A program made the position numbers and the translations under genes. The notes below the pieces were generated by a model. The model was not told the DNA's origin. It did no database searches and saw only the letters and a list, made by a program, of their open reading frames with translations. From a virus: a DNA stretch of 39,035 nt. The stretch is taken from positions 1 to 39,035 of IMG/VR virus record IMGVR_UViG_3300017917_002824; one strand, written 5' to 3'. Positions 5,882-21,656 of this stretch are shown piece after piece (within the stretch, counting starts at the first letter, position 1; each line of letters opens with the position of its first letter).

Positions 5882-6346
5882 TTAGTGTTTGTTATAGAGT
5901 AACTCACGATAATAGTTTATCATTTTTTTTGAATGATTTATTAACCATTCCTCAACATTAGGTATTTTTTGTAAAAAATCTAATTCATACTTATAACACA
6001 AAATTTCTTCATACTCCTCCCCTAAAAATATATTATGATTACGATAATATAAATGCTTCGATTCGTGAATTATTGTTGCCATTATATTATTGATATTACC
6101 GGATTTAATGTCTTTAGTTGAAATTATTATAACATCCTTACCCTCAGTTGTTGAATAATTTTCATTCCAAAATCCAATTCTTTTACACTCCTTTAGTATT
6201 ACATCATATTTGGTATTATCTACCGATTCAATCGTTTTCAAACTTAATTCAACCCTTTTTTTCCATCCTTCACCCACATCATCAATTTCTATTTGAGAAA
6301 AAGATTTGATGGTAAAAAGTAATGCTAATAATATGATAATTCTCAT
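5882..6346 (-). CDS. Secreted HExxH metallopeptidase-like protein
   Basis: 154 aa with an N-terminal signal peptide ending SFSQ. IIHESKHLYYR (HESKH) forms a zinc-binding HExxH helix, and Glu residues in GEEYEEILCYKYE about 15-20 residues on could supply the third ligand. The size suits a minimal periplasmic or surface zincin. It lies upstream of, and divergent from, the exported-protein operon at 6437, with a TATTTAT box 12 nt from the ATG. Substrate unknown; the activity is predicted from the motif only. Confidence 0.78.
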   Translation of the reverse strand: MRIIILLALLFTIKSFSQIEIDDVGEGWKKRVELSLKTIESVDNTKYDVILKECKRIGFWNENYSTTEGKDVIIISTKDIKSGNINNIMATIIHESKHLYYRNHNIFLGEEYEEILCYKYELDFLQKIPNVEEWLINHSKKMINYYRELLYNKH

Positions 6347-6436: not shown

Positions 6437-8320
6437 ATGAAAAAACTTTTTATGGTGTTGTCATTCCTTGTAATGACGACTCTGGGGTATTCCCAAATTT
6501 GTCCAACACCGACAACTACAGGAGTTTTTGTTACATTAGATGAAACTTATCAGTTGGCACCGGCATCCGCAGGTAATACTGAAGTAGGGTTATGTTTTTT
6601 TAACAACACAACTGAGTTGATTACGGCAGTTCAGTTTCGAGTATTTTATGACACGGATGCGTTCTCTTCAGTATCATCTGTAGTTTCATCAAATACCTCG
6701 TTTCCTCAATATATTCAATTTCAGGATAGTCCTGCAAGTGGATATGTTACAATTACATTAACTTACACAGGTAATAACCCAAATTTTGAATTATCTGACG
6801 GTTCATTAGTCAAACTAACATTAGTTCATTCATCTAATTTCGCTAGTTTAACTTCAGTGGACCCAATGACATTTAGTGGTGTTCAAACTTTCCCTCAAGT
6901 TTCAACAACACAATTAGGTTCAGATTATGTTTTAAATTTACAAAATTTTGGTGGTCAATTTTTACCTCAATTATTCTCATTCAATGGAGTATTCACAAAT
7001 GTGACTGGTACAGGTGCAAAACAAATCCCGGTTATTTTAGAAAAGAAATTAATGACTTCTTCAACTTGGGTTCAGGCATCTACAACATTAACTAATTTTG
7101 ATGGTGTATTCACATTTACCGACATTCCAATCGATGTTACAAGTTATAATGTTCGTATTAGAGTAAATGGTGACGCATTAACAGTTGGAAATATTATTTC
7201 AACATCCGATTCACAAAAAATTAATAGATTTGTGTTAGGTCAAGAAGCCCCGACAGGTTTCGACTTTTATTCATCTGATGTAAATGGAGATAATAATATC
7301 ACCATATCTGATGTTTACGGAGTATTCGGTAGAGTATCAGGTAGATTTAGTTCTTGGCCAAATTCGGTTAAAGACATTAAATTCTTTACATCGTCAGAGT
7401 ATGGTACAATCACATCTTCATCTACAAATTTACAATCATCTATACCTGGTGTGACAAATCTTGTTTATGAAATTTTACCGGGAACGACAACAGTTACATT
7501 CTATGTGTTAGTTAAAGGTGATGCAAATGGTACTGGTTTCAACATGGCTCGTTTAACTCCAATCGAAATCATCAATCCATTAAACACACCATCTCATATT
7601 ATTGATGTAACAACAAGTTATGATGACCCTACATTACAAACAATCGAATTAAATTACCCTAATTTATCAGTAAATGAAAATAACTTAGTTGAAGTACCTG
7701 TTACGGTTAAAACTAACGGTATTGATTTAGGTTCATTACAATTCGCACTTAATTATAATGGAGATTTATTGGATTTTAGAGGTGTAAGAAACGAACCTAA
7801 AGTTGGTTCTTGGATTTCTTTTATAAACCCTAACGATAATGTTGTTGAATGGGGAGGATATGACCCAACTTTAAACACAAAACTATTAAGTAATAATGAA
7901 TTAGCATTTACCCTACAATTTACCGCAAAAGAAATTCAAAGTGAGTGGATGTCAAGTCCTTTATATGTTACGAAAAAATTTGCAGGAAATTCAATGGCTC
8001 GTGATTTAAACATTATTCCAACAAATGGTATGGTTCAAATTTTAAGAGTTGTAAGACCTAATGAATATGATTACATGTTGACATATCCAAATCCAACAGA
8101 TGATTTAATTACAGTTAAATTTACGGTTGAAAAAGCTGGTGATATTTCATTATCAGTTTATGATTTAGGAGGTAAAGAACTTAAAACTATTGTTCACACA
8201 GATTTAGAAAAAGGTGAACACAATTATAGTACAAACATTGGTTTCCTTCCTTCAGGAACTTATGTGGTTGTATTAAAAAAAGAAACCGGAAAACAATTTA
8301 ATAAAGTAATCCGTAAGTAA
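6437..8320 (+). CDS. Large secreted protein with type IX secretion sorting domain
   Basis: 627 aa. Signal peptide (residues 1-20, ...TTLGYSQ); cohesin-like beta-sandwich (about 30-172); CnaB-like segment (173-250); dockerin-like calcium loop DVNGDNNITISDVYGVFGR (281-299); second cohesin-like sandwich (about 405-535); and a C-terminal type A T9SS sorting domain (547-627: YPNPTDDLITVKF..., SVYDLGGKEL, LPSGTYVVVLK..., VIRK). The signal peptide sends it through Sec and the CTD to the host's Por/T9SS translocon, predicting display on or release from the host surface. It leads an operon with a CsgG-like gene. It shares the dockerin-like module with the protein at 11329. A T9SS cargo in a phage is unusual. 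Ligand unknown. Confidence 0.88.
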   Translation: MKKLFMVLSFLVMTTLGYSQICPTPTTTGVFVTLDETYQLAPASAGNTEVGLCFFNNTTELITAVQFRVFYDTDAFSSVSSVVSSNTSFPQYIQFQDSPASGYVTITLTYTGNNPNFELSDGSLVKLTLVHSSNFASLTSVDPMTFSGVQTFPQVSTTQLGSDYVLNLQNFGGQFLPQLFSFNGVFTNVTGTGAKQIPVILEKKLMTSSTWVQASTTLTNFDGVFTFTDIPIDVTSYNVRIRVNGDALTVGNIISTSDSQKINRFVLGQEAPTGFDFYSSDVNGDNNITISDVYGVFGRVSGRFSSWPNSVKDIKFFTSSEYGTITSSSTNLQSSIPGVTNLVYEILPGTTTVTFYVLVKGDANGTGFNMARLTPIEIINPLNTPSHIIDVTTSYDDPTLQTIELNYPNLSVNENNLVEVPVTVKTNGIDLGSLQFALNYNGDLLDFRGVRNEPKVGSWISFINPNDNVVEWGGYDPTLNTKLLSNNELAFTLQFTAKEIQSEWMSSPLYVTKKFAGNSMARDLNIIPTNGMVQILRVVRPNEYDYMLTYPNPTDDLITVKFTVEKAGDISLSVYDLGGKELKTIVHTDLEKGEHNYSTNIGFLPSGTYVVVLKKETGKQFNKVIRK

Positions 8321-8325
8321 AACAT

Positions 8326-8346
8326 GTGGTCACAATTTGTGACCAC
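8326..8346 (+). other. Intercistronic inverted repeat
   Basis: GTGGTCACA and TGTGACCAC, a perfect 9-bp stem with a 3-nt loop, just after the T9SS gene. No T-run follows, so it is not a classical terminator. Possible mRNA 3'-end stabiliser, attenuator or operator within the operon. Confidence 0.5.
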
Positions 8347-8388
8347 TCAGCCTAAGAAGGGAAATAAACAATTAAATATTAAACAAAA

Positions 8389-8724
8389 ATGTCAGAAGAA
8401 ACACAAGAAACACAAAATGATGGTACTTGGTCAGGTTTGAAGAAAACCATAATTGGAACTTTAACAACAGTAATTGGTGGTGGAGGTATTTGGTTATCAA
8501 CGACTTTATTTGGAGGTCATTCTGAAGATAAAGAAGAAACTAAAACAGAACAAGTTGTTCAACCAGCGGCTCCGGTTATAAATGTAAATTTAGAAAACAA
8601 CAACACCAACCAACAAAAACAACAAGGTGGAGGTAATACTACAATTATTAAAGAAAAAGTTGTAGAAAAACCTGCAGCTCAACCTGTACCGGCTAAACCA
8701 AAAGAAGAGGAAGACCCTTGGTAA
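8389..8724 (+). CDS. Single-TM protein with Asn/Gln- and Pro-rich tail
   Basis: 111 aa. A short acidic N-terminus is followed by one glycine-rich hydrophobic segment (about residues 19-42: KKTIIGTLTTVIGGGGIWLSTTLFGG), then a low-complexity tail rich in Asn, Gln, Lys and Pro ending EEEDPW. No cleavable signal peptide. It sits inside the exported-protein operon, 2 nt before the CsgG-like gene. Candidate roles are a small inner-membrane accessory or a holin/spanin-like protein; neither is proven by sequence. Confidence 0.75.
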   Translation: MSEETQETQNDGTWSGLKKTIIGTLTTVIGGGGIWLSTTLFGGHSEDKEETKTEQVVQPAAPVINVNLENNNTNQQKQQGGGNTTIIKEKVVEKPAAQPVPAKPKEEEDPW

Positions 8725-8725
8725 G

Positions 8726-9439
8726 ATGAAAAAGTTATTAATTGCTACTTTTTTATTTTGTTCTTATTTGGGAGTATCTCAAACAATTGGAACAATTAAA
8801 ACTGAGGATTATAAAGCTGATTTCGAAAAGAAACAATCCTTAGATGTGGTTAGTGATTACAAAGGAGATATTGTAATACCAATCCAAATCTTAAAAATCG
8901 GAATTAATGATGAGGTATATGAAATGTACCCAGAATTAAAAGATAAGAGAGTTGGTCTTGGTGTTGCGAATATTGTATTAGAGTATCTTGAATCAACCGA
9001 CCGTTTTAAATTCACTGAAGATAAGGCGGAAATTAAAAATAAAATGATTGCACAAGATAAAGCATCTGATAAAGGAATTTCAAGTAATAAAATAGAAGTT
9101 AAAGGAAATGTTATTTTAGCGAATTATTTTGTTTACATAGAAGTTTACGATTTCAGCGTGTCGGAAGATGAAATCATTAAAGGAAATGAAGGTGCAAAAA
9201 TAACTCAAACAACTCGTTTAGGTTTACAAATAAGATTTGTGGATGCTCAAACAGGTGAAGTAATCACAGGGAGTGGATTAGGTGAAGCAAACACCGTAAA
9301 AACAGCTTCTCTTCTAGATGATGTAGATGAAATAAAATTTAACCAATCAACTATTGGTATATCAACAAAAAAATCATTAGAAACAGCATCTTCGAGAGTC
9401 GTATCTAAATTAATTAAAAAAGGGGTTTTTAAAGAATAA
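8726..9439 (+). CDS. CsgG-like outer-membrane secretion pore subunit
   Basis: 237 aa with a signal peptide (1-19, ...YLGVSQ). The body resembles the CsgG/curli transport family: VGLGVANIVLEYLESTDRFKFTED, YFVYIEVYDFSV, a hydrophilic stretch, RLGLQIRFVDAQTGEVITGSGLGEANT, then FNQSTIGISTKKSLETASSRVVSKLIKKGVF, typical of the C-terminal helix of that family. E. coli CsgG is a lipoprotein; here no lipobox Cys is seen at the cleavage site. CsgG forms a nonameric outer-membrane channel for curli subunits. CsgG-like genes have been noted in some marine T4-like phages (from memory), where a role in lysis or release has been suggested. The stop overlaps the next start (TAATG). Confidence 0.75.
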   Translation: MKKLLIATFLFCSYLGVSQTIGTIKTEDYKADFEKKQSLDVVSDYKGDIVIPIQILKIGINDEVYEMYPELKDKRVGLGVANIVLEYLESTDRFKFTEDKAEIKNKMIAQDKASDKGISSNKIEVKGNVILANYFVYIEVYDFSVSEDEIIKGNEGAKITQTTRLGLQIRFVDAQTGEVITGSGLGEANTVKTASLLDDVDEIKFNQSTIGISTKKSLETASSRVVSKLIKKGVFKE

Positions 9440-10875
9440 TGAAAAAAACACTTTTCACTTTATTTTTTTTACTAACTACAACATTGGTTATGGGACAAGG
9501 GTTGGTATATTCGTATGCCGACCCATGTACTTCCAAAACTAAAGAACTTTATATTCCAAACCCATCTCAAAGTGTTGTATTATCTTACAATGGTTCAGTT
9601 CAAAGTTTCACATACGCCCAACTTCAATCAGGGGCTATGGAACAATGGATAAATGAAGTAAATTCTCAAAACCCATTAGGACCTTGTAGTGGTGTTGGAC
9701 TTCAATTAAATACAACAATAAATGCCACAATCGCAGCAAATAATATACAAGTATTAACGACTGTGTTGACCTCAATTTCTTCATTATCCGGTGGTGCAAA
9801 TATAGAAGGAGTAATCCAAGCAGATGAAAAAGTATCATCTAATAATGAAAGACAGAAGGATAAAACCAAAATAAATAATAATGGAACAACTAATACTGAC
9901 GGAGGAAATCCAACAACTATTAACTCAAATACAGGAACTTCGCAAAGTGGGGGAAATCAAAATAATAGTTCAGGAGTTGGAAATGGAACTAATCCGCAAG
10001 GAACAACGACTACAAATCCAAATGTCCCATCTTCAACAGGAAGTCAACCGTCTCAGTCATCTGTAACACCAAATCCTAATAATTCCACAACACCAAATAC
10101 TAATAATTCCTCAGGTACAACTAATATCACCGGAGGAATTAATTCTGTTAGGTTAGATAATACTGAAAAGTCCGATAAAGAAAAATTAGAAGACGCACAA
10201 TCTTCCTCATCGACAACTTCTTCGTCAACAAAAAGTAAAGTTGCCGCAGTAAAAAAAGGGAGTATAATGATGACAGGTGATATAGTGGTTATTGGTAGTG
10301 CGAATGGCGTTGACCCATCTCAAGTTAGAGTGAATACAAGTATCATTTCATCAAATACAAAAAACACATTTGCAAAAGGTGCATTACTTAACTACACAAG
10401 TCAAATCAATAATACAAACATCACCCTATTTGCATCATATCGTTACAAAAAATCAACAACCATTATTGCTAACTCGTCAATGATGAATTTTGAAAAAGAT
10501 TTTTTCAATACAACTTCAATAATGGAATCTTATCAGATAAAAAAAATCACTACAACGGTAGGGGTAAATTATACTGTAGGAAATTTAGGTGAATCTAAAT
10601 TTCAGAGTATTTCAACTTTAGCCGGTGGTTATGGTAATTTTAAACTTAACAAAAAAATGAACATAACAACAATGTTTGTTATGGTTTATTCACCATTTGT
10701 TTATTACTATGAAGGAATTTGGTATCAATCAGGATTTTTAGCAGTACCATTCACCGCAGTGGATTATAAATTAACAAAAAAATTCAAACTAAACATAAGT
10801 TTCAGTGGTGTTCAACAAATTAATGACCAACCACTAAATTACCAAGTTTTACTTGGAGCAAAAGCATTTTTATAA
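9439..10875 (+). CDS. Secreted protein with disordered linker and C-terminal beta-barrel
   Basis: 478 aa. Signal peptide (1-20), a compact N-terminal domain (about 21-115: LVYSYADPCTSKTKELYIPNP..., two Cys at about 29 and 75), a long Asn/Thr/Ser/Gln/Pro-rich linker (about 130-265), then ~210 residues of alternating amphipathic strands ending in an aromatic/hydrophobic terminus (...LGAKAFL), as in outer-membrane beta-barrels. Coupled to the CsgG-like gene by a TAATG overlap. A role as barrel partner or client of the CsgG-like protein is inferred from operon position. Confidence 0.78.
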   Translation: MKKTLFTLFFLLTTTLVMGQGLVYSYADPCTSKTKELYIPNPSQSVVLSYNGSVQSFTYAQLQSGAMEQWINEVNSQNPLGPCSGVGLQLNTTINATIAANNIQVLTTVLTSISSLSGGANIEGVIQADEKVSSNNERQKDKTKINNNGTTNTDGGNPTTINSNTGTSQSGGNQNNSSGVGNGTNPQGTTTTNPNVPSSTGSQPSQSSVTPNPNNSTTPNTNNSSGTTNITGGINSVRLDNTEKSDKEKLEDAQSSSSTTSSSTKSKVAAVKKGSIMMTGDIVVIGSANGVDPSQVRVNTSIISSNTKNTFAKGALLNYTSQINNTNITLFASYRYKKSTTIIANSSMMNFEKDFFNTTSIMESYQIKKITTTVGVNYTVGNLGESKFQSISTLAGGYGNFKLNKKMNITTMFVMVYSPFVYYYEGIWYQSGFLAVPFTAVDYKLTKKFKLNISFSGVQQINDQPLNYQVLLGAKAFL

Positions 10876-10877
10876 CT

Positions 10878-11327
10878 ATGAAAAATTTATTATTCTCAAT
10901 TTTGATGTTATTCACACTAACATCTTTCTCTCAAAATTGTTATACCGTTAAAGAAGTTAAAAACAACGGTGAAATTGAAGGAATTAACCCTAAAAGATTT
11001 ACTTTAGGTGTAAAACAAATAACGGAAGAAATATTATCTGAAAAATTTACAGTTTGTGAAAACGGTAATCCGGTTAATGTTACAATAGTAAGTATTGAAG
11101 CACCTTCGACAGGGTTTTCATTAGGTCCATTTGAGAAAAAAAGAAAAAAAACAATTGTTAAGTTAATTATTAATATAGATGGTAAAGAATTTGAGGGCGA
11201 GGGACAAGCAAATACCGATGTCCAATCAACCTTTATCGAATTACAAGACGAAAATTTACCATTTGAAAAATCAGCATTTTCAGGAGCACTTAAAAAGGCA
11301 CTAATAGATTCATTATCAAAAATGTAA
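10878..11327 (+). CDS. Small periplasmic protein in CsgG-like operon
   Basis: 149 aa with a signal peptide (1-19, ...TSFSQ). The mature part has a helix, then strands (KFTVCENGNPVNVTIVSI, KKTIVKLIINIDGKEFEGEGQANTDVQ) and a C-terminal helix (SAFSGALKKALIDSLSKM), reminiscent of the small alpha/beta domains of CsgG or LPP20-type envelope proteins. Starts 2 nt after the beta-barrel gene and ends 1 nt before the lectin gene. Precise function not recognised. Confidence 0.75.
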   Translation: MKNLLFSILMLFTLTSFSQNCYTVKEVKNNGEIEGINPKRFTLGVKQITEEILSEKFTVCENGNPVNVTIVSIEAPSTGFSLGPFEKKRKKTIVKLIINIDGKEFEGEGQANTDVQSTFIELQDENLPFEKSAFSGALKKALIDSLSKM

Positions 11328-11328
11328 A

Positions 11329-12306
11329 ATGATTAAAAATTTTATATACATATTATTCTTTATTCAATCTGTCTGTTTGGGTCAGAACTTTACTCATTCA
11401 GGGTATGTTTATAACTCATCAGGTTTAGGTGTTGCGAATTATGAAATTAAATTATATAAAAGAACTACTCCAAATTTAAATGGGTTTACATCTCAGAATA
11501 ACTATAATGGTCATTCGTATTATCGTTCAACCGGTTCGATGACTTGGACTGACGCAAGACAAGCATGTTTAAATATGGGGGGTCATTTAGTTACTGTAAC
11601 AACTCCTGAAGAAAACAACTTTATTTTTAATTTATGGCCGTCAGGTTGGATAGGTTTGACGGATGAAGTTATTGAAGGTCAATGGAGATGGGTTACAGGA
11701 GAACCATTCACTTGGGCTAATTGGAATTGGGGGGAACCAAATAATGCAGGTAATGAAGATTATATCCAATTTGTTGGTGGGGGGAAATGGAATGATTTAC
11801 CTAATGTCTCATTACCTTATGTATTAGAATTTGAATATATTGTGACATTTACAGATTGGGTTTATGTTAAATCGGTATATACTGACTCTCTTGGTCGTTA
11901 TATTATTAACGAACCTTCAAACCCATCTGTAGAATGGTATTTAAAAATCGACATACCTTCAAATTTTTACCAATCTTCAAATGCTGACATTCTTGGTGCC
12001 AACACTAAAACAATTTCAAGAAATTTTACTTCACTTGATTTTTACAGATATGATGTAAATAATGATGGTCGAATAAACATTTCAGATGTTTATTATATGT
12101 CGATGAGACAAAATAATAGATTCCAAAATTGGAACATCACTTTACCGAATTATCGACTTTTATTACCTTCACAATTTTCGATAATAAATTCTTCAACATC
12201 GGATTTGAGAACTACCTATCCGGGTCAATCATCATTCACAATCAATAATCCGGTGAATGGTGGTACTAATAATTTTTATTTAATCACTACAGGTAAAAAG
12301 GACTAA
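11329..12306 (+). CDS. Secreted C-type lectin-domain protein with dockerin-like module
   Basis: 325 aa. Signal peptide (1-19, ...VCLGQ). The C-type lectin fold covers about 58-170: WTDARQACLNMGGHLVTV, WIGLTD, the EPN triplet at 136-138 and WND at 154-156 (EPN/WND are the mannose-type calcium site in classical lectins). The lectin appears inserted into a CnaB or carboxypeptidase-regulatory-like domain, whose halves flank it (residues 22-46 and 171-210, GYVYNSSGLGVANYEIKLY and YTDSLGRYII). A dockerin-like loop YDVNNDGRINISDVYYM (241-257) follows, as in the protein at 6437. No T9SS sorting domain. Probably binds surface glycans; inferred. Confidence 0.85.
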   Translation: MIKNFIYILFFIQSVCLGQNFTHSGYVYNSSGLGVANYEIKLYKRTTPNLNGFTSQNNYNGHSYYRSTGSMTWTDARQACLNMGGHLVTVTTPEENNFIFNLWPSGWIGLTDEVIEGQWRWVTGEPFTWANWNWGEPNNAGNEDYIQFVGGGKWNDLPNVSLPYVLEFEYIVTFTDWVYVKSVYTDSLGRYIINEPSNPSVEWYLKIDIPSNFYQSSNADILGANTKTISRNFTSLDFYRYDVNNDGRINISDVYYMSMRQNNRFQNWNITLPNYRLLLPSQFSIINSSTSDLRTTYPGQSSFTINNPVNGGTNNFYLITTGKKD

Positions 12307-12314
12307 AAGTAAAG

Positions 12315-12343
12315 TATTTATAGTAATAAAATGTAAATTACTA
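12315..12343 (+). promoter_or_regulatory. TATTTAT box with TAGTAAT/ATTACTA dyad reaching the start codon
   Basis: TATTTAT at 12315-12321; inverted repeat arms 12321-12327 and 12337-12343, the latter ending on the A of the endolysin ATG. Could hide the start codon in RNA or act as an operator. Confidence 0.5.
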
Positions 12344-13164
12344 TGATATTAAAAAACGGTTCAAAAGGAGAAGAAGTTAAAAAACTTCAAACGAAATTGG
12401 GAACAACACCTGATGGTGTATTTGGTCCTGGTACAGAAAAATTAGTTAAAGAATGGCAAACCAAAAATGGATTAACCGCTGATGGTATTGTCGGTGACGC
12501 AACTTGGAAAAAAATGTTTCCGGGTGAAGTCATAAAAGAAGATGTGGTAATCCCATCAGGTGGAGCTTTTAAATTAGAAAAATTAAAAGGTCATATACCT
12601 GAATCAGTAATAGCTCAAATTCCTGACACAGCAAAAAAATTCAACATTACAACACCATTAAGATTGGCACACTTTTTAGCACAATGTGGTCACGAATCAG
12701 GTGGATTTAAAGCGGTTCAAGAAAACTTAAACTATTCAGCGGATGGTCTTAAAAAAATATTCCCAAAATATTTCCCGGGTAATTTAGCTGAAGGTTATGC
12801 TAGAAACCCTGAAAAAATTGCATCAAAAGTTTATGGTGGAAGAATGGGTAATGGAGATGAGTCAACAAAAGAAGGTTTCAAATTTAGAGGTAGAGGTTAT
12901 ATCCAATTAACAGGAAAACAAAACTATACAAATTTTGCTAAATTTATTGGTGAAGATACAGTTTCAAATCCTGATTTAGTTGCAACAAAATATCCGTTAG
13001 CATCTGCAGCATTTTTCTTTGACTCAAATAAACTTTGGTCAATTTGTGATAAAGGTGCTGACGACGCTACTGTGACGGCAGTTACAAAAAGAGTAAATGG
13101 TGGAACTATCGGATTAGCTGATAGAATAAAACATTTCAAAGAGTATTATAATTTATTAAAATAA
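12343..13164 (+). CDS. Endolysin: peptidoglycan-binding domain plus GH19 chitinase-like lysozyme
   Basis: 273 aa, no signal peptide. Residues 1-60 form a PG_binding_1 domain (LKNGSKGEEVKKLQ..., DGVFGPGTEKLVKEWQ, DGIVGDATWKKM). Residues about 80-273 are a GH19-type catalytic domain: LAHFLAQCGHESGGF (catalytic Glu118), QENLNYSADGL (Glu127), RYARNP-like YARNPEKIASKVYGGRMGN, FRGRGYIQLTGKQNY, then ASAAFFF. It cleaves the glycan backbone of peptidoglycan to release progeny. It follows the exported-protein operon directly but has its own TATTTAT box and dyad. Confidence 0.95.
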   Translation: MILKNGSKGEEVKKLQTKLGTTPDGVFGPGTEKLVKEWQTKNGLTADGIVGDATWKKMFPGEVIKEDVVIPSGGAFKLEKLKGHIPESVIAQIPDTAKKFNITTPLRLAHFLAQCGHESGGFKAVQENLNYSADGLKKIFPKYFPGNLAEGYARNPEKIASKVYGGRMGNGDESTKEGFKFRGRGYIQLTGKQNYTNFAKFIGEDTVSNPDLVATKYPLASAAFFFDSNKLWSICDKGADDATVTAVTKRVNGGTIGLADRIKHFKEYYNLLK

Positions 13165-17725: not shown

Positions 17726-17977
17726 TTACTCTTCAGTTTCTTCACCTTTATTTTTATTTATCCATTTGTCAACCGAACCGATACCAAATGAACCTAAAAC
17801 TAACCACATAAAGGCATTAAAGATAAACTCGTTTATTACTAGGTCTTGACCTAAATAACCTGTGATAATATCCGCAACTGCGAATGCCACCATCATGATG
17901 AAAGCTAAAAAGCCAACAACACTTTTTTCATTGATTGAGTTATCATCATTGAATAACTCACTAAAAAATTTTTTCAT
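17726..17977 (-). CDS. Holin-like small membrane protein
   Basis: 83 aa: a short charged N-terminus (MKKFFSELFNDDNSINEKSV), two hydrophobic helices (about 21-41 and 49-68) and a charged C-terminus (KWINKNKGEETEE). Size and topology match two-TM phage holins, which open the inner membrane so that endolysin reaches peptidoglycan. The TATTTAT-plus-dyad upstream matches that of the endolysin and T9SS operons, suggesting co-regulation. Assigned by topology only. Confidence 0.65.
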   Translation of the reverse strand: MKKFFSELFNDDNSINEKSVVGFLAFIMMVAFAVADIITGYLGQDLVINEFIFNAFMWLVLGSFGIGSVDKWINKNKGEETEE

Positions 17978-20280: not shown

Positions 20281-21000
20281 TTATAATATTCCATGGATAA
20301 AATTCATTTTTTCCTCATTCGTTAATTCTTGAGTGGTAAATGAAAAAGGGTCATACCCTAACAATAAGAAATATTGTTTATGATACTCATACACTTTTTT
20401 CGCAGATTCAAATGTATACACCGAATTAAATTTAACTGAATGATTGTTAAGATGTTCATTTTTTCTTAGATAATTCTCAATATAACCTGATGACCATATT
20501 GAACTTTCTCTAATAAAATCAATTTTTTCCAAATCATTAATAATATTTTCAATTCTTATATAATGTTTGGGGATTTTAACATCAAAATTATATTTTGAAA
20601 CATAATTTTCAAGGATAATTTTATTTTCGTTAATTGGTTTATCTATTCTTGGGATAATTTCTTTAACTTTAAACAATTCATCGATAAATGATGAAAAATT
20701 ATAGACAAATTGTTCATGATTATTTTTATCGTAATAAAATGATGCACCAACACTCACAAAATTCAAAAAAAGACCTAACATTCTATCATACGGATTTCTA
20801 ATACTACAAATTACCTGATAATCACTACTATCCCCGGATGGTATTGATATTTCATGAGACTGATAATTAGATTTTTTAACCGTATTACCACATTTCATTT
20901 CATAAATAAAATTAAAATGTTCAAATATGTGTGCAGTTGCCTTGGTCCCGCATCTTTCGGGGGCCCACCAAATTGTTTTATGTTTGTGAGAAATATTCAT
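20281..21000 (-). CDS. Sulfotransferase-like protein
   Basis: 239 aa. The N-terminal TIWWAPERCGTKATAHIF fits the 5'-phosphosulfate-binding loop of PAPS-dependent sulfotransferases, and YQVICSIRNPYDRMLGLFLNF fits the 3'-phosphate-binding R-x-P-x-x-R block. The remainder (PKHYIRIENI.NDLEKI, ...KKVYEYHKQYFLLLGY) resembles the Sulfotransfer_2-type carbohydrate enzymes. It would move sulfate from PAPS to a glycan or lipid, perhaps host surface material or a phage structure. Divergent from the nuclease gene at 21018. Substrate unknown. Confidence 0.8.
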   Translation of the reverse strand: MNISHKHKTIWWAPERCGTKATAHIFEHFNFIYEMKCGNTVKKSNYQSHEISIPSGDSSDYQVICSIRNPYDRMLGLFLNFVSVGASFYYDKNNHEQFVYNFSSFIDELFKVKEIIPRIDKPINENKIILENYVSKYNFDVKIPKHYIRIENIINDLEKIDFIRESSIWSSGYIENYLRKNEHLNNHSVKFNSVYTFESAKKVYEYHKQYFLLLGYDPFSFTTQELTNEEKMNFIHGIL

Positions 21001-21006
21001 TTCTTA

Positions 21007-21013
21007 TATTTAT
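21007..21013 (+). promoter_or_regulatory. TATTTAT promoter-like box, N4 before ATG
   Basis: TATTTAT-GATT-ATG; picks the start at 21018 over the ATG at 21012. Confidence 0.6.
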
Positions 21014-21017
21014 GATT

Positions 21018-21656
21018 ATGAGAAAATTTTTATTAACATTTGTAATTATTTTATCGTCTCTACAATCTTTTAGTCAAGACACGATAAGAATCAAACACAC
21101 TAATTATACAACAGTTTTTAGTAAAACTAAACATTACCCGGTTTTGGTTGAATGGTGGGTGACAAAATCTATGGTAAGTTGTGAAAAACCACTTAAACGA
21201 AAAGACAATTTTAAACCGGACCCACAATTACCTAAGGAAACTGATTTATCCAAAGATTATGTTGGTAGTGGCACTGATAGAGGTCATATGATGCCAGCAG
21301 CCGATAATCTTTGTCAAACTCAACAGGTACAAGACGAATGTTTTTATTTTTCGAATATGTCTGCACAATATCATAGTTTAAATGCTGGTGATTGGAAATC
21401 ATTAGAAACTTTAACTCGTCAAATGTCAATACAAAGTGATAGTATTAAAGTTTGGTGTGGAAATATTGGTGAAATTAAACGAATTGGTAAAGTTGCGGTT
21501 CCAAAACAATGTTGGAAAGTGATTTATATTAAAAAAACCAAAGAATGGAAGTCATATTTGTTTGACAATACCACAAATAAACCTGATGGAATTGAAAATA
21601 ATGTGGTTAAATTACAAGTCATCGAAGAATTAACCGGATTTAAGTTCAAAATATAA
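21018..21656 (+). CDS. Secreted DNA/RNA non-specific endonuclease (NucA/Serratia type)
   Basis: 212 aa. Signal peptide (1-20, ...SLQSFSQ). The catalytic motif DRGHMMPAAD is present (Asp87-His90; His90 is the general base), followed by the metal-binding Asn of YFSNMSAQ (about 118) and LNAGDWKSLE, as in Serratia nuclease. Short but complete for the family. It is exported, so it acts in the periplasm or outside the cell, for instance degrading DNA in lysates or competing incoming DNA. The start is set by TATTTAT-N4-ATG. Confidence 0.92.
   Translation: MRKFLLTFVIILSSLQSFSQDTIRIKHTNYTTVFSKTKHYPVLVEWWVTKSMVSCEKPLKRKDNFKPDPQLPKETDLSKDYVGSGTDRGHMMPAADNLCQTQQVQDECFYFSNMSAQYHSLNAGDWKSLETLTRQMSIQSDSIKVWCGNIGEIKRIGKVAVPKQCWKVIYIKKTKEWKSYLFDNTTNKPDGIENNVVKLQVIEELTGFKFKI

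Follow-up and report, generated by a model that had tools for sequence, protein, structure and literature searches.

The IMG/VR virus record IMGVR_UViG_3300017917_002824, analysed here as one stretch of 39,035 nucleotides (the window), carries at positions 6437–12306 a cassette of six closely packed open reading frames on the plus strand, which we call A (627 amino acids), TM (111), CSG (237), BAR (478), E (149) and LEC (325). As described in the first-pass annotation, the genes are coupled, with gaps of 1, −1, 2 and 1 nucleotides after position 8389, and five of the six products carry by eye Sec-type signal sequences ending in ..SQ or ..GQ, the exception being TM, which has one internal transmembrane segment instead. 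The locus, including a sorting domain of the type IX secretion system (T9SS) and two frequent neighbours of the cassette, is laid out as follows.

5882–6346, minus strand: small exported HExxH protein (154 amino acids), zincin-like; frequent neighbour
6437–8320, plus strand: A (627 amino acids); signal peptide, cohesin-like I, Ig-like, dockerin-like and cohesin-like II domains, T9SS type A C-terminal sorting domain
8084–8311, plus strand: T9SS type A sorting domain of A (PF18962, TIGR04183)
8326–8346, no strand assigned: near-perfect palindrome of 21 bp between A and TM
8389–8724, plus strand: TM (111 amino acids); single transmembrane segment
8726–9439, plus strand: CSG (237 amino acids); divergent CsgG-fold protein by prediction, core residues 51–231
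9439–10875, plus strand: BAR (478 amino acids); signal peptide, N-domain, linker, predicted 12-strand outer-membrane beta-barrel
10878–11327, plus strand: E (149 amino acids); exported, apparent short CSG paralog
11329–12306, plus strand: LEC (325 amino acids); C-type lectin domain plus Ig-like/dockerin-like module
12343–13164, plus strand: endolysin with peptidoglycan-binding and GH19-like parts; frequent neighbour outside the constant cassette

The six genes are real and form one conserved unit. A set of 157 fetched loci was reduced at the CSG C-terminus to 84 non-redundant viral loci, and near CSG these contain A/LEC-type proteins in 80 cases, TM homologues in 77, BAR in 78 and E in 71. Neighbouring cassette genes lie on the same strand in all 380 of 380 pairs, the common pairs having median gaps of −4 to 12.5 nucleotides. 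A search starting from BAR recovered CSG at 73 and E at 74 of 76 loci, and the three loci without CSG are short contig stretches. Ratios of nonsynonymous to synonymous substitution rates against near relatives range from 0.03 to 0.22 across the genes, with the lowest values in CSG (0.04–0.09) and the endolysin, and every cassette gene is thus under strong purifying selection. Synteny in other phages, which the first-pass annotation had proposed to look for, is borne out by an order conserved across the 84 loci; since all genes are in addition under purifying selection, a chance association is ruled out.

The CSG family is nearly confined to phages. At least 584 stretches in IMG/VR encode it, as found by a search with CSG followed by one with the CSG alignment, and among 50,697 phage records the only cultured carriers are isolates of the Flavobacterium phage immuto. 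In bacterial genomes sampled at one per species (84,980 species) it occurs at two loci, both on contigs of metagenome-assembled genomes (MAGs) with phage-like neighbours; it was found in one of 395 sampled Bacteroidota genomes, that one being the query MAG itself, and a search of plasmids gave no match. Immuto is a cultured T4-like phage whose cassette lies at 10.5–16.4 kb (lectin to short paralog), adjoining replication genes, with the structural genes at about 82–160 kb; its A is divided over two genes, of which the second apparently bears the T9SS sorting domain. From immuto and the T9SS label we infer a Bacteroidota host for the window phage. By eye, a distant clade (loci L074, L077 and L078) retains TM, CSG and BAR, together with a homologue of E, a cohesin-like protein and one that resembles a lectin. 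Extra barrel-like proteins are also seen by eye in these loci, as are two small lipoproteins per locus resembling lipid-anchored, stand-alone T9SS sorting domains (L074:7771–8488, L077:7496–8220, L078:7543–8260).

The resemblance of CSG to the curli channel protein CsgG, proposed in the first-pass annotation, cannot rest on sequence alone, because the Pfam CsgG profile (PF03783) gives no match to the window protein at E-values up to 1. The same profile is matched by four of 49 CSG relatives, a weak link (best 8.5e-5). A combined hidden Markov model of true CsgG and soluble CsgG-like proteins, built here, matches CSG at 1.3e-6, whereas a model of CsgG only, also built here, does not, and the profile–profile comparison with true CsgG alone gives 0.4%. 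In an AlphaFold2 (AF2) model from 49 sequences, with a predicted local distance difference test score (pLDDT) of 75.7, the elements follow the order beta-alpha-beta-alpha-3beta-alpha, and the top 15 Foldseek matches in the PDB are all E. coli CsgG (best E-value 4.6e-8, probability 1.0, with template-modelling scores of only about 0.5), followed by PelC (1.8e-6), Cj1090c and FlgT. The predicted fold of CSG is thus the CsgG alpha/beta fold. The absence of CsgG profile similarity, which would have spoken against the resemblance, holds for the window protein alone and is overturned by the fold and the relatives.

The regions that form the pore in CsgG are, nevertheless, of a different kind in CSG. 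The two hairpin segments comprise 24 and 33 residues in E. coli CsgG, 17% and 21% of them charged; in CSG they are 20 and 22 residues long and more charged, at 35% and 32%, and across its family they span 19–24 residues with 18–42% charged. CSG is therefore a CsgG-fold protein without recognisable membrane hairpins, not pore-like and comparable to PelC-type rings. It also differs from CsgG in lacking a typical lipobox (FLFCS in the window), a lipobox-like motif being present in just 34 of 84 relatives. CSG was rejected as a true curli CsgG on the missing hairpins and on the mutually exclusive results of searching phage records with CSG and with E. coli CsgG. In the PelBC structure, from the export system of the Pel exopolysaccharide, PelC is a CsgG-fold ring protein without membrane hairpins that is paired with the outer-membrane barrel PelB (PMC12141448). 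The cassette likewise combines a hairpin-free protein of predicted CsgG fold with an outer-membrane barrel, its ring being our conjecture; BAR differs from PelB in its 12 predicted strands and its lack of tetratricopeptide repeats, and no sequence similarity was detected.

Phage-encoded CsgG and CsgF have been reported in pelagimyophages (PMC7029224) and in phage Melnitz (PMC9004378). The proteins of HTVC008M and Melnitz are true CsgG, 37–40% identical to that of E. coli, and the HTVC008M hairpins are canonical. These phages share with the present family an exported CsgG-fold protein in a compact gene cluster of a myophage; however, they carry true CsgG together with CsgF, and searches from either family find none of the other. 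By sequence comparison, the CSG family appears to be a lineage separate from pelagimyophage CsgG, in different phages. Beside csgF-csgG of HTVC008M we noted by eye curlin-like 'VTQxGxxN' repeats in two proteins (L263:4818–5501 and 6585–7907), one with a PA14-like N-terminal part, whereas the published account describes csgA and csgB as missing.

Profile–profile comparison of the mature parts of E and CSG gives a probability of 96.6% (E-value 5.4e-10), against 0.4–0.7% for reversed controls, and a single direct BLAST link joins the two families (2.7e-6). On this evidence E is identified as an exported short paralog of CSG, a relationship not recorded in the first-pass annotation, as were neither the cohesin- and dockerin-like domains nor the module common to A and LEC described below. 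E was rejected as CsgE (0.1–0.2%), and its PDB profile match to ribosomal S1 (0.002 over 46 residues) was judged to be chance. As a separate observation, 41 loci (L154 and 40 others) have beside or near CSG a strongly conserved protein with two transmembrane segments (WKEMLLILLGAFVGNLNKVVDYWF...DKMLIQKVDEEDG), which belongs to no named family and is absent from the window and immuto.

In the case of BAR, AF2 gives an N-domain (residues 20–117), a disordered linker rich in Asn, Gly, Ser and Thr (118–271) and 12 strands (275–477), and Foldseek matches in the PDB include the 12-strand outer-membrane barrels NanC, NalP, EstA, KdgM and FapF. The C-terminus is accordingly predicted to be a 12-strand outer-membrane beta-barrel, in agreement with the barrel ending noted earlier. 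Two cysteines of the N-domain (DPC and PC) are conserved in 42 of 42 aligned sequences. The Pfam autotransporter profile gave no match to BAR, despite the similarity of its model to NalP and EstA. Two other identities were discarded: a 94% match of the N-domain to CsgF consists of the signal peptide and the residues directly after it and falls to 0.3% once the signal peptide is removed, and comparison of the barrel with the C-terminal part of CsgG from Flavobacteriaceae curli operons (L160–L169) gives 0.5%. The CsgG of those operons has about 460–510 amino acids and by eye shows, in L160, L161 and L165, an apparent extra C-terminal beta-barrel-like domain that is absent from E. coli CsgG.

Protein A has both hallmarks of T9SS type A cargo, a signal peptide and a C-terminal sorting domain; the latter, recognised already in the first-pass annotation, matches PF18962 (E-value 7.6e-11, residues 550–625) and TIGR04183 (1.1e-8). 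It is preceded by cohesin-like I (residues ~22–170), dockerin-like (~243–307) and cohesin-like II (~399–535) regions, with PDB profile matches to scaffoldin dockerin and cohesin chains. Among 27 long relatives of A, the sorting domain is present in all 27, cohesin in 21 (best 1.4e-12) and dockerin in 12 (best 1.4e-5), and 73 loci have exactly one T9SS sorting domain each. A search of 100 Flavobacteriaceae genomes with the A profile gives matches to host proteins in 91 of them; almost all of these matches are confined to the sorting domain, and the label therefore looks like that of host cargo. T9SS type A cargo proteins, a PA14 protein included, are also encoded by Cryophage (PMC7468147); there they are variable single genes, whereas here one labelled protein belongs to a constant cassette.

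LEC contains the C-type lectin domain that had been noticed at the outset (PF00059, E-value 3.5e-16, residues 70–158), with the sequence GEPNNAGNEDY...KWND. C-type lectins of the mannose type carry the motif pair EPN...WND, and EPN is present in 42 of the 42 loci with a recognisable lectin motif; by motif, LEC is thus of the mannose type. A and LEC match each other by profile at 99.8% (E-value 2.8e-30) over a common Ig-like/dockerin-like module of about 160 amino acids, and dockerin is found in 5 of 25 members of the lectin-type set. Cellulosomal scaffoldins share with the cassette the combination of cohesin and dockerin-like domains seen in A and the dockerin-like domain of LEC; the cassette differs in being phage-encoded, in the attached T9SS sorting domain and in the C-type lectin partner, and its pairing is putative.

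TM has a short N-terminus, one glycine-rich transmembrane segment and a Pro/Lys-rich tail. It presumably sits in the inner membrane, with the tail probably periplasmic. No significant family was found for it in Pfam, PHROGs or NCBIfam, and weak matches to Zot-like proteins and FliL (E-values 0.01–0.06) were judged compositional.

The predicted parts thus span the inner membrane, the periplasm, the outer membrane and the cell surface. The interpretation we favour, while rating it a little short of an even chance, is that the cassette encodes one phage-made, envelope-spanning device that changes the surface of the Bacteroidota host during infection. By analogy with PelC below PelB, CSG, together with E, would form a periplasmic ring below BAR, whose N-domain may be a periplasmic or passenger domain on a long flexible linker, and TM would serve as an inner-membrane tie. 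The host T9SS would export A; LEC, passing through BAR or attached to it, would arrive at the surface and dock to A by cohesin–dockerin contacts. The resulting lectin coat could bind surface glycans, the likeliest aim being to block adsorption of other phages (superinfection exclusion) or to promote adhesion of infected cells. Remodelling of the host surface, one of the two roles suggested by the first-pass annotation, fits well with a cassette that has exactly one T9SS-labelled protein and an outer-membrane barrel, besides a lectin of EPN type and cohesin/dockerin-like domains. Several points weigh against this interpretation. The structures are monomer predictions, and ring formation, the contact of CSG with BAR and the cohesin–dockerin pairing are inferences; the BAR model is of moderate confidence, with a pLDDT of 58 over the whole protein and of about 80 over the barrel; window A itself does not reach the Pfam cohesin threshold; the dockerin-like repeats are degenerate, the second of the paired calcium loops being clear (DVNNDGRINISD) and the first degenerate; and a pure surface role leaves unexplained why an endolysin is close to the cassette in 18 of 28 loci.

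This last point leads to the other suggested role, in which CSG, E and BAR would open or weaken the outer membrane late in infection, acting with the adjacent endolysin and replacing spanins. An endolysin does follow the cassette directly (12343–13164; phrog_181 at 4.7e-68, with PF01471 and PF00182 matches), holin-like and exported nuclease genes also recur as cassette neighbours, and the same idea, a role in lysis, was put forward for the CsgGF of phage Melnitz (PMC9004378). However, in 18 of the 28 loci with full flanks an endolysin of the window's family is found no more than 12 genes away from CSG, the other 10 having none in that range, and immuto has a separate pair of holin and chitinase-type endolysin at 43.7–44.8 kb, 28 kb from its cassette; the constant position with holin and endolysin expected of a lysis module is thus not seen. 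Because the endolysin neighbour, although frequent, is not constant, the argument from its position is only suggestive. Permeabilisation of the outer membrane for release is not well supported, given that the hairpin segments of CSG are short and charged, without pore hairpins, and that the immuto lysis pair is so distant, and it would leave the lectin, cohesin and T9SS parts unexplained. We consider a lysis accessory unlikely, and weaker than surface display.

About as improbable, in our judgment, is a dedicated secretion channel similar to the type VIII (curli) or the Fap system: CSG/E and BAR would export LEC or an unseen substrate to the surface. The CsgG fold of CSG and the true csgF-csgG of pelagiphages argue for it. 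FapF, the exporter of the Fap amyloid, consists of an N-domain, a linker and a 12-strand barrel; BAR shows this layout and has FapF itself among its PDB matches, but so many outer-membrane barrels match it equally well that the likeness is a common one, and no other Fap component was recognised in the cassette. Nor was a CsgE, CsgF or curlin partner found: after removal of signal peptides, profile comparisons with CsgE and CsgF give 0.1–0.9% (E against CsgE 0.2%, BAR against CsgF 0.3%), and no curlin repeats were noticed in the cassette. Highly unlikely is an autotransporter in which BAR displays its own N-domain with CSG and E as chaperones, A and LEC working separately as adhesins that would make cells aggregate or keep new hosts close, as in the 'sibling capture' proposed for pelagiphage curli genes (PMC7029224). 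A 12-strand barrel at the C-terminus behind a linker and a passenger-like N-domain would suit it, as would the high rank of NalP and EstA in the structural matches, but there is no Pfam autotransporter match and the retention of CSG at 73 and of E at 74 of the 76 BAR loci suggests an obligate complex.

Some further features of the window deserve mention. Within the cassette only the gap between A and TM is of any size, and it contains the palindrome GTGGTCACAATTTGTGACCAC (8326–8346), a possible attenuator or operator; a promoter scan was uninformative, with 65 sites against 61 expected. The small protein at 5882–6346 on the minus strand contains the motif HESKH and gave no match in Pfam; 45 of the 84 loci encode a homologue of it close to the cassette. 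In 18 loci the cassette has as a neighbour an exported DNA/RNA non-specific endonuclease, a homologue of which (E-value 1e-21) is encoded at 20916–21653 on the plus strand of the window. Finally, 17726–17977 on the minus strand encodes a protein of 83 amino acids, probably with two transmembrane segments, whose immuto homologue adjoins the endolysin and holin; it may be a lysis gene.

Returning to surface display, a more far-reaching form of it, which we regard as rather doubtful, is that many Bacteroidota phages bring their own envelope-spanning machine, a double CsgG-fold ring with a private barrel, and hijack the host T9SS, assembling a cellulosome-like cohesin–dockerin lectin scaffold on the infected cell. 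Within the openly licensed literature searched, we found no description of a cohesin/lectin phage cassette or of the cassette of immuto. Curli pores encoded by phages were already known, as were T9SS cargo genes occurring singly; the present cassette is a constant, phage-specific combination of a protein of predicted CsgG fold, its apparent paralog, a predicted outer-membrane barrel, a T9SS-addressed cohesin-like protein and a putative mannose-type lectin. Hundreds of viral contigs carry it, and its presence in immuto, which forms a cultured phage–host pair with Flavobacterium sp. LMO8, makes the role of exported phage CsgG-like proteins directly testable, and the cassette connects phage biology with the secretion routes of Bacteroidota surfaces.

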